Below, in pieces: positions 22,434 through 25,198 of a stretch of DNA of 36,548 nt. The position numbers were made by a program, and so were the translations under genes. The notes under the pieces were generated by a model. The model had not been told where the DNA came from and ran no database searches. It worked only from the letters and a program-made list of their open reading frames with translations. This stretch comes from Candidatus Nitrosopumilus sp. (lineage in GTDB: Archaea; Thermoproteota; Nitrososphaeria; Nitrososphaerales; Nitrosopumilaceae), in assembly GCA_029250275.1 (NCBI GenBank), contig JAPFBP010000009.1:1-36548 (forward strand), in the 5' to 3' direction. Numbering within the stretch: the first letter of the stretch is position 1; each line of letters opens with the position of its first letter.

Positions 22434-22456
22434 AAATCCAACTAATTTTGTTTTCA

Positions 22457-23440
22457 TTGCCTAGCAAAGTCAGGATGACAAAAAATGGAATTCTATGTGA
22501 TGTTGATGATAAACGAGTCTGCTTGGATCCAAAAAACAGTGACGTTAACGGAATTAATTTTGTATCTCATGCACATTCTGATCATCTTCCATCAAAAAAT
22601 GGTGGAACTATTCTATCCTCTATTGAGACTAGTGAAATAGCTAATCTTCGAGGATTTAAGATGGAAAATCATATTGAATCCCTTGATAATTTTTCTCTGA
22701 TTGACAGTGGCCATATTTTAGGTGCAAAAGGATTGCTTTTTGATGATATTTTCTATACTGGTGATGTTTGCACTAGAGATCGTGGATTTCTCAAAGGAGC
22801 TAAAATTCCAAAATGTAAAACGCTAATCACTGAGTGCACATTTGGTCTACCTGAATTTGTTTTCCCTAAACTTGAGGATACTCTAAAACAAGTAAATGAA
22901 TTAATTTCTGAACTTTATGGGAAAGGTGTTCCGGTAATTTTAATGGGTTACCAATTAGGTAAGGCACAAACAATTACGCAATTTTTTGGTCACTGGGGTC
23001 CACTATATCTTCATGATTCTGTAAAAGATATGAATACATTACATCAAAAATTTGGTGTATCTTTAAATGATGGAATTGGACATACTGAGGCTGAAAAAAA
23101 TGGTTTACTTGAAAAAAAGCCTTGGGTTATGGTTGCACCGTTGATGTCTAGCAAAAATAAATTTGTTCAAGATATGAAATCAAAATATGGTGCTGTAACT
23201 ATTGGATTTAGCGGATGGGCACAATCAATGAAATATTCTTTTGGGAGACGAACTGATTATTCAATTCCAATTAGTGATCATTGTGATTACAATGAATTAA
23301 TTCAGATGGTTGTACAATCTGAAGCTGAACAAGTATACACAATACATGGTTTTGTAGATGAATTTGCTGAGGACTTGCGTAAAAGAGGAATTAATGCACA
23401 ACCATTACTAGAAAATTCGTTGGATAATTTTACTTGGTAA
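22457..23440 (+). CDS. MBL-fold exonuclease/RNA-processing-like protein
   Basis: About 327 residues of a metallo-beta-lactamase fold nuclease-like protein. The HxHxDH site is HAHSDH about 40 residues in; further metal-site blocks are DSGHILGA, YTGDVCTRDRG and the late SDHCDYNEL. YQLGKAQTITQFF in the middle and IHGFVDEFAEDLRKRG at the end match the group annotated as mRNA 3'-end processing or ligase-associated exonucleases. The start is uncertain: TTG at 22448, TTG at 22457 or ATG at 22475. I favour 22457 because the TATA-like element lies about 28 bp upstream. Its stop region overlaps the convergent Cys-rich gene by 11 bases. The substrate cannot be read from sequence. Confidence 0.85.
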   Translation: MPSKVRMTKNGILCDVDDKRVCLDPKNSDVNGINFVSHAHSDHLPSKNGGTILSSIETSEIANLRGFKMENHIESLDNFSLIDSGHILGAKGLLFDDIFYTGDVCTRDRGFLKGAKIPKCKTLITECTFGLPEFVFPKLEDTLKQVNELISELYGKGVPVILMGYQLGKAQTITQFFGHWGPLYLHDSVKDMNTLHQKFGVSLNDGIGHTEAEKNGLLEKKPWVMVAPLMSSKNKFVQDMKSKYGAVTIGFSGWAQSMKYSFGRRTDYSIPISDHCDYNELIQMVVQSEAEQVYTIHGFVDEFAEDLRKRGINAQPLLENSLDNFTW

Positions 23441-23666
23441 ACTCGTTACATTCACAATTATTTGCTAGACATGATTCTAAATTTCTAATATGGTCATGGG
23501 AAAAATGTTTACATTTTTCATTCTTGCAAATTCTTCGTTGAGCTTCTTTCTGTACCACCGTTTGGGCAATTTCATTTGCTTTGTCTTTTGAATATCCTTT
23601 TTTATCAATATAGAAATGAACCACTCTATTGTATAGCATCTCTGGATTGAATTGTTTTTCTAGCAA
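23430..23666 (-). CDS. Cys/His-rich small protein, unknown
   Basis: A 78-residue protein. An N-terminal helical part (residues 1-45, with MLYNRVVHFYIDKKGYSKDK and ANEIAQ) leads to a C-terminal metal-site-like half: C-KNEK-C-K-H near 47-54, then H-D-H, then C-LANN-C-E-C near 67-74. The pattern C-x4-C-x-C/H thus occurs twice, as it does in the microprotein encoded immediately upstream. The TTG start overlaps the microprotein's stop codon (TTGCTAG), an arrangement typical of coupled translation. An ATG nine codons on is another start. Zinc binding is an inference; the family is not recognised. Confidence 0.7.
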   Translation of the reverse strand: MLEKQFNPEMLYNRVVHFYIDKKGYSKDKANEIAQTVVQKEAQRRICKNEKCKHFSHDHIRNLESCLANNCECNEFTK

Positions 23667-23764
23667 TATTGTCTCTTCCTATTCCCTCTTCTAAAACTTG
23701 ATCCCTCATGACAGTCACATTTACAAGATATATAATTACAAAACCCTTGATTGTTTTTTACCAT
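23660..23764 (-). CDS. Cys-rich 34-residue microprotein
   Basis: A 34-residue frame beginning MVKNNQGFCNYISCKCDCH and ending KRQYC. It has five cysteines and one histidine (Cys9, Cys14, Cys16, Cys18, His19, Cys34), spaced C-x4-C-x-C-x-C-H, and a basic second half with RRGNRKR. This is a plausible zinc- or metal-binding mini-domain. It has a TATA-like AAATATCAT about 22 bp before the ATG, and its stop overlaps the start of the next gene, which repeats the same C-x4-C-x-C spacing. The coupling and shared motif argue that it is real despite its size. Function unknown. Confidence 0.6.
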   Translation of the reverse strand: MVKNNQGFCNYISCKCDCHEGSSFRRGNRKRQYC

Positions 23765-23869
23765 GCTCCAATTAGGCAATTATGATATTTGAAGGGCTCT
23801 TCTTTTTGAGTAATCATTTGTTTAATTAAAATCAAAAAAATTAATATTTTACATCTAAATTTTTGAAAA

Positions 23870-25147
23870 TTATTTTAAAATTACTCCTATATCCATTAGA
23901 TTTGTGTGGGTTGGATTTGTTTTGATGTTTCCTTTTTGTTTTTGAAAGAATCTCCCCGAATCACTATTTTTGAGAAATTCTTTCATTAAATCTAAATCCA
24001 TTTTCACATTCTCTGTTATTGCTCCTGCAAAAACGGAATTACCGTCTACTCCATCAGTTCCTACCGATGAAATTACCATTTTTTTCATTTTCTGTGTATT
24101 TTTTAATAATCTTAAAACTAATTCTTGATTTCTTCCCCCCATTCCTTTTCCAAGAACTTTGACTGTTGTTTCTCCTCCAAAAATGATACATGTTTTTTCA
24201 CTCTCTGAAATTTTTTCAAGTATTTTTGTAACTGCTTCTTTAATGTCTCCAAAAACATGCATTACATCAACTGTATATCCACTTTTTTCTGCTTTGTCTT
24301 TCATTTCATTCAAACAATCATCATTATTTGCGATGACATAATTTTCAATTCTAGCTTTTTTTGGTGTTTCTATTTTTTTTTCATTCATTCTATTTTCTAA
24401 AAGTGTTAAAACTTCATCAGGCATTTTCCATCTTATTTTATATTTAGATATAATGTCTAATGCATCTGCATATGTTGTGTCATCCATGTATGTTGTACCT
24501 GATGCAATAGATGAAAGATCATCTCCTTCAACATCTGACATTACTAATCCTACTCCTTGGCATTTCATATTCTTAACAAGTTTACCTCCCTTGATTTTGG
24601 ATAGGTGTTTTCTAACACAATTAACTTCTTGAATAGTAGCTCCTGATTTCAACAGTACATCTGTGACATGAATCTTATCCTCTAGAGTGATATCATCCGG
24701 TAATGCTAGCAACGATGAACCTCCTCCCGAAACTAGAAAAATTATCAACTCATCACTCCGCTTGTTTTGAACGAATTTCATGATTTCTTTTGCTGCTTTT
24801 ACACTGGTTTGATCTGGCTTAGGATGTCTAGAATTAAAAATTTGAAATTTTTTACTTTTCATTACTGATTTTGAGCCTTTAGGAATTACTATGATTCCAC
24901 TTTTTATTGGAATTATTGCATTTAGTGCTCTGGTCATGGTATCGCCTGCTTTACCAAAAGCTACTGAATAGATGCTTGAATATTTCTCAAAATTAAAAGA
25001 TTTACCGTTGATTTTAATTTCATTAGGGGTCACAAATTTTGGAATGATGTTTTCTGGATTTGCTGCTTGTAATCCTGCTTCTAAAATTTTTAAACAATCC
25101 TTTTTCTTGTCTGTAGTTGCCAAATCATCGAAATTTTGAATAATCAT
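23870..25147 (-). CDS. gckA: Glycerate 2-kinase (MOFRL family)
   Basis: About 425 residues of the GckA/TtuD-like glycerate kinase family, which makes 2-phosphoglycerate from glycerate and ATP. Visible blocks are the substrate/nucleotide part VSGGGSSLLALP near 145-156, VNCVRKHLSKIKGGKL near 178-193, and the C-terminal MOFRL domain with FGGETTVKV..GKGMGGRNQELVLRLL near 330-353, then SVGTDGVDGNS and GAITE. The ATG at 25147 is preferred over one 12 codons upstream, as the TATA element is centred about 27 bp away. The gene diverges from the alcohol dehydrogenase across 51 bp. Confidence 0.92.
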   Translation of the reverse strand: MIIQNFDDLATTDKKKDCLKILEAGLQAANPENIIPKFVTPNEIKINGKSFNFEKYSSIYSVAFGKAGDTMTRALNAIIPIKSGIIVIPKGSKSVMKSKKFQIFNSRHPKPDQTSVKAAKEIMKFVQNKRSDELIIFLVSGGGSSLLALPDDITLEDKIHVTDVLLKSGATIQEVNCVRKHLSKIKGGKLVKNMKCQGVGLVMSDVEGDDLSSIASGTTYMDDTTYADALDIISKYKIRWKMPDEVLTLLENRMNEKKIETPKKARIENYVIANNDDCLNEMKDKAEKSGYTVDVMHVFGDIKEAVTKILEKISESEKTCIIFGGETTVKVLGKGMGGRNQELVLRLLKNTQKMKKMVISSVGTDGVDGNSVFAGAITENVKMDLDLMKEFLKNSDSGRFFQKQKGNIKTNPTHTNLMDIGVILK

Positions 25148-25166
25148 GCTGTCCTCAATAATGCAA

Positions 25167-25181
25167 GATATAATAATAATC
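25167..25181. promoter_or_regulatory. Shared TATA element between gckA and the alcohol dehydrogenase
   Basis: GATATAATAATAATC is centred at 25174, about 25 bp before the rightward ATG (25199) and about 27 bp before the leftward ATG (25147). As both starts would be leaderless, a single AT-rich element could direct transcription both ways. Confidence 0.5.
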
Positions 25182-25198
25182 AATGATGCCTTTCATTC

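Follow-up and report, generated by a model that had tools for sequence, protein, structure and literature searches.

On the minus strand of a 36,548-nt stretch of DNA from Candidatus Nitrosopumilus sp. (contig JAPFBP010000009.1, positions 1 to 36,548; the whole stretch that was analysed, here called the window), a cysteine-rich reading frame of only 34 codons runs into the start of a second small cysteine-rich gene. The locus raises the question of whether so short a frame encodes a functional protein, and whether the two genes form one unit making two related metal-binding mini-proteins, as the original prediction had it. The features are as follows.

22448..23440, plus strand: convergent metallo-beta-lactamase-type nuclease gene (RMMBL, PF07521, 7.9e-5)
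23430..23666, minus strand: 78-codon gene with a TTG start, encoding a helical hairpin (residues 8-44) and one zinc-finger-like domain (from translation, homologues and predicted helices)
23660..23666, minus strand: 7-nt stop/start overlap TTGCTAG (from the sequence; conserved in all 17 group-A loci that were tabulated)
23660..23764, minus strand: 34-codon gene for a Cys-rich micro-protein (from translation, homologues and pN/pS)
23669..23692, minus strand: purine-rich stretch encoding RRGNRKRQ (Shine-Dalgarno-like string match)
23785..23793, minus strand: TATA-like box TTCAAATAT preceding the 34-codon gene (from motif conservation)
23870..25183, minus strand: glycerate kinase-type gene (DUF4147 + MOFRL; PF13660 4.5e-73, PF05161 5.9e-29)

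The 34-codon gene

Translation of the frame from 23764 to 23660 gives MVKNNQGFCNYISCKCDCHEGSSFRRGNRKRQYC followed by a stop codon, with cysteines at positions 9, 14, 16, 18 and 34 and a histidine at 19, as had been read from the DNA. The layout is C-x4-C-x-C-x-C-H ... RRGNRKRQYC. Homologues are found in 42 of the 95 congeneric genomes and in 14 genomes from two sister genera (g3 and g4), the genomes compared being largely metagenome-assembled. The strong homologues (group A) come from 26 of the genus genomes and a diverged form (group B) from 16 more, while the 14 genomes of g3 and g4 carry a third form (group C), the named loci being mostly Nitrosarchaeum. An extended-profile search for a wider range found nothing beyond genera g1, g3 and g4. 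Across the three groups M1, C9, C14, C16 and R26 are invariant and H19 and R25 nearly so (at least 90%), and the length of 29-34 residues is conserved down to approximately 32% identity. The expectation that the cysteines would be invariant thus holds for C9, C14 and C16, and for the core Cys/His residues of the 78-residue protein, but not for C18, which is Asp in group B, or for C34, which occurs only in group A.

The pN/pS of the 26 group-A copies is 0.187 in frame versus 1.81 and 0.79 in the other two forward frames. In the coupled set it is 0.165, versus 0.123 for the 78-codon gene, and in group B (14 copies) it is 0.42, which is weaker but still below 1. Codons 20-26 display unusually little synonymous change in group A (pS 0.17 versus about 0.5 over the gene), and the DNA of codons 20-27 (GGATCAAGTTTTAGAAGAGG, 23684-23707 on the minus strand) is nearly invariant there; it is a possible RNA or DNA element within the coding sequence.

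Since the ORF is short, and is missing from the closest relatives as judged by similarity of the 78-residue protein and the nuclease (L185-L187), it might be taken for a chance open frame or a conserved non-coding leader. The pN/pS, its specificity for one frame, the invariant Cys, His and Arg residues and the length kept at low identity make this highly improbable. Nor was a decayed frame seen: the relatives without the 34-mer lack the entire gene and have a different promoter in its place. At the sequence level this reading is already refuted, and the frame is, by the same kind of evidence, a genuine micro-protein gene under protein-level purifying selection.

Neither the 34-mer nor the 78-residue protein matches any Pfam or NCBIfam model, and the motifs CPxCG, CPxCx and CxxCG are absent from both. 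The 34-mer is shorter than 70 residues; the 78-mer is longer. When it comes to known systems, the C(P)XCG micro-proteins of Haloferax volcanii (HVO_2753 and HVO_0758; PMC11241148) are likewise very small, have few conserved cysteines that are predicted ligands, and are often overlooked in annotation. The 34-mer differs from them in its pattern, C-x4-C-x-C-x-[CD]-H followed by RRG, within 29-34 residues, and no sequence match was found. By its sequence it is an archaeal predicted-zinc micro-protein of a non-CPxCG type. Of 14 C(P)XCG proteins from Haloferax, five were free of zinc (PMC11241148), so that metal binding is not to be assumed in such micro-proteins.

The 78-codon gene and its zinc-finger-like domain

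The second gene is present in 84 of the 95 genus genomes (54 of the 56 good ones) and throughout the family, while no relatives outside the family were found in the order sample or the phylum sample (300 genomes). Both genes are consequently conserved in relatives, as had been anticipated, and both are under purifying selection. Among 55 diverse members of the 78-residue family, F6, Y19, A30, N31, A34, E41, C47, C52, H54, H59, C66, C71, C73 and F76 are invariant. The cysteines and histidines follow the order C-x4-C-x-H-x4-H-x6-C-x4-C-x-C, then -x2-F. Two metal sites had been proposed from the spacings C-x4-C-x-H and C-x4-C-x-C; both spacings exist, but as all seven ligands are invariant across the 55 members they appear, more simply, to be the two halves of a single zinc finger and not two mini-sites.

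An AlphaFold2 model shows a confident helical hairpin (helices 8-22 and 27-44) and a finger of lower confidence, and with the model trustworthy for the hairpin only, no significant fold match was found in PDB or BFVD. A profile comparison with solved structures gave no relative (best E 1.1), and Pfam searches with the 55 members gave scattered weak matches (best E 0.0027). In ligand order and spacing, residues 47-76 resemble phrog_6114 (E 0.0024, a weak match) and proteins of approximately 200 residues from Nitrosopumilaceae (E 1e-4 to 1e-3). These fingers are of the C-x-C-G-H-x4-H...C...C-x-C-x2-F type found in phage and archaeal proteins; however, they stand in other protein contexts, and the hairpin of residues 8-44 is not part of them.

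Some observations were made along with these searches. A conserved Nitrosopumilaceae protein of about 200 residues (L161-L167) has the same finger, CSCGHEAQDHDEGDDDVCLYNDCSCKAF, and a sub-threshold Pfam match to FAM221 (E 0.009). A diverged relative of the 78-residue protein (L177; G192 C1:142001-143389) is apparently split by a frameshift and may sit in a mobile element. The 78-codon frame is broken by a frameshift or stop, with the micro-protein frame intact, in Ca. Nitrosopumilus salaria BD31 (L257, 3001-3235) and in L100 (G085), which may reflect either a real loss or a fault in the assemblies.

The 34-mer and the 78-mer had been proposed to be related. They have a spacing in common, and the Cys motifs do align, but hhalign gives a probability of 2.65% and BLASTP an E of 0.51, so that homology is not demonstrated.

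Junction, promoter and probable coupling

The overlap between the end of the 34-codon gene and the TTG start of the 78-codon gene, read originally as TTGCTAG, is present in the sequence, and in group A the junction is taTTGCTAG with the same 7-nt overlap. In group B the junction is TAATG, or the stop codon stands immediately before TTG; the distance is 0-1 nt in all but one locus (L094), which has a longer overlap. In g3 and g4 the kinase gene is followed by the micro-protein gene, a gene for an AsnC ligand domain (RAM, PF01037, 2.6e-12) and the 78-codon gene; here the micro-protein gene ends at the start of the RAM gene, and the RAM gene usually ends at the start of the 78-codon gene. These packed gene orders make the micro-protein the first gene of a tight predicted message in several clades. 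A stand-alone Lrp/AsnC ligand-domain gene is seen in the neighbourhood in L116, L119, L173, L176 and other g3/g4 loci, and also, in part of group B (L247, L248), near the 78-codon gene; relatives of this gene reach approximately 20 copies per genus genome.

The glycerate kinase-type gene lies upstream on the same strand, 105 nt before the ATG of the 34-codon gene. The TATA-like box that had been noticed before this ATG (TTCAAATAT, 23793-23785) is indeed present 21-29 nt upstream of it, and the motif [TC]T[CG]AAATA is found in 26 of 26 group-A copies. Among 82 genus loci, 17 are coupled in the A manner and 16 in the B manner, while 49 have the 78-codon gene alone. As judged by simple string matches, which were used for both the TATA and the ribosome-site tests, a TATA-type box stands 20-60 nt before the 78-codon start in 45 of the 49 solo loci versus none of the 33 coupled ones. 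With the second promoter missing from all 33, the coupled genes are probably transcribed together, and termination-reinitiation would then link their translation. A match of at least 3 nt to GGAGGTGA occurs in all 33 coupled loci, and 31 of the 49 solo loci have none; the purine-rich stretch at 23669..23692 may serve in ribosome binding ahead of the TTG start, although the RRGNRKR codons partly fix the same bases and the signal is therefore not independent.

In archaea, reinitiation at short gene overlaps is an established process (PMC6728339; PMC10666635), and such termination-reinitiation pairs often encode subunits of a complex (PMC10666635). The pairs described have, like this one, a short overlap on the same strand, and the second gene is expected to depend on translation of the first (PMC6728339; PMC10666635). 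Their overlap is commonly -4 or -1 nt, whereas here it is 7 nt with a TTG start, and the first gene has 34 codons.

The 34-codon frame might also serve mainly as a cis-acting leader ORF that controls ribosome entry to the 78-codon gene, with a functionless peptide. It always comes first, with its end overlapping or touching the start that follows, the downstream gene has no promoter of its own in coupled loci, the peptide is rich in Cys and Arg, as would suit for instance cysteine- or arginine-sensitive stalling, and the pS of 0.17 at codons 20-26 hints at a nucleotide-level element. However, the frame also occurs apart from the gene it would control. In eight genomes it stays after the kinase, and the 78-codon gene is 1-11 kb away, on another contig or not found; the displaced genes have, in the cases examined, mostly their own promoter. 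The pN/pS of these separated copies is 0.20. In L056 the end of the peptide, QYC, is kept through TAC TGC TAA, where a synonymous change has destroyed the overlapped TTG. Both the selection on the separated copies and the L056 allele argue for a functional peptide and against a pure leader, and g3 and g4 place the same peptide before a different gene. A leader with no use for its peptide is accordingly considered unlikely.

The separated alleles also bear on the history of the locus. Scars of the lost 78-codon frame, consisting of its first 10-18 bases (TAGAAAAACAATTC), follow the stop codon of the 34-mer in L043, L047, L049 and L052. The kinase adjoins the micro-protein gene in most loci that carry the latter, the eight split ones included, and the nuclease gene, which overlaps the end of the 78-codon gene by 11 nt, is a conserved neighbour. 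Mapped on a tree of the nuclease, the state of the 34-mer (A, B, C or none) requires 11 changes, so that a single insertion or loss is unsupported. The nearest relatives of the window (L185-L187) have no 34-mer and carry the solo promoter; together with the 11 changes this indicates that gain and loss of the 34-mer are frequent. That coupled, solo and separated alleles occur as a mosaic points to recombination between the conserved flanks as the probable route.

Proposed function and related micro-proteins

The claim that the genes form one unit can thus apply to a part of the loci only. Two diverged clades keep the genes overlapping or abutting, and the promoter of the 78-codon gene is missing only when the genes are coupled, while 49 of the 82 loci have the 78-codon gene alone and eight genomes have the 34-mer with no adjoining 78-codon gene. 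Since the 78-codon gene occurs without the micro-protein in more than half of the genus, the closest relatives of the window included, joint function is not obligatory.

It could then be that the micro-protein is an independent metal-binding or metal-buffering protein, the overlap reflecting genome compactness with no functional link to the 78-residue protein. That the genes are found apart, in the 49 solo loci and as eight separated 34-mers, is in keeping with this, as are the absence of demonstrable homology between the two proteins and the occurrence elsewhere in these genomes of other micro-proteins with the C-x4-C-x-C-x-C-H pattern. It does not account for the adjacency, which is found again in diverged clades with three kinds of junction, nor for the fixed 7-nt overlap of the group-A junctions, and full independence is thought to be rather improbable.

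The explanation that is preferred, and that as a whole is held with reasonable though far from complete confidence, is that of a functional single-metal 34-mer encoded on one transcript with a reinitiation-linked 78-residue protein, the two serving as a joint accessory regulator. A short transcript would start at the TTCAAATAT box with the 34-codon gene first, and ribosomes finishing this gene would restart on the overlapping TTG to produce the 78-residue protein in linked amounts. The 34-mer would hold a single metal ion (zinc, most likely), with C9, C14, C16 and H19 as ligands and C18 as an additional or alternative one in most members; metal binding by the 78-mer is likewise predicted from its residues. 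The arginine-rich tail of the 34-mer, given its charge of +5 and by precedent, is likely to contact nucleic acid, and the two proteins probably cooperate in a small accessory regulatory role at this locus, where the sister genera also have a stand-alone Lrp/AsnC ligand-sensing protein.

A nucleic-acid-binding regulatory role is suggested here by analogy. In Halobacterium salinarum the gene of Brz, a small zinc-finger protein, lies directly upstream of the gene that it regulates and in the same direction, as here (PMC2253796). Brz has a CPxCG-related motif, and the abstract and section consulted do not describe a stop/start overlap (PMC2253796); it is taken as a functional precedent for an upstream zinc-finger regulator and not as a relative.

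The C-x4-C-x-C-x-C-H module is not confined to the 34-mer. As a DNA pattern it has at least one site in 29 of 40 genomes, some of the sites being low-complexity or out-of-frame chance matches, and the reversed pattern has mostly none. A second micro-protein family of 33-35 residues, MDKEWLRVKSGRSKGCKDCxxHRCIPSSCNCDCHK, contains the same module. A single copy is present elsewhere in the genome of the window (G000 contig C52:22780-22812, L278), and other genomes carry the family at the locus considered here (L245 2364-2471, L257 2630-2737, L205 and L210); several genomes have it on the opposite strand, between the kinase and the 34-mer. A third type, ...FGFKCIMNKHDFCEHSSCKCLCH..., is found upstream of the 78-codon gene at the same locus in Nitrosomaritimum-like genomes (L225, L236, L240), sometimes as two copies on opposite strands. 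It may be, though this is put forward tentatively and is doubtful at present, that the 34-mer belongs to a set of at least three hitherto unrecognised Nitrosopumilaceae micro-protein families, two of them often at the same locus, which share this metal module and have zinc-finger and AsnC partners, and which would make up a class of regulators confined to ammonia-oxidising archaea. In the literature library that was searched, no paper turned up on small ORFs, on leaderless starts or on micro-proteins with zinc in Nitrosopumilus.

Comparative genomics thus indicates that genes of 30-35 codons in ammonia-oxidising archaea can be real, conserved and under selection, and yet be without a Pfam or NCBIfam model. 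The coupled, solo and separated alleles constitute a natural experiment on termination-reinitiation and on micro-protein function in Nitrosopumilaceae.
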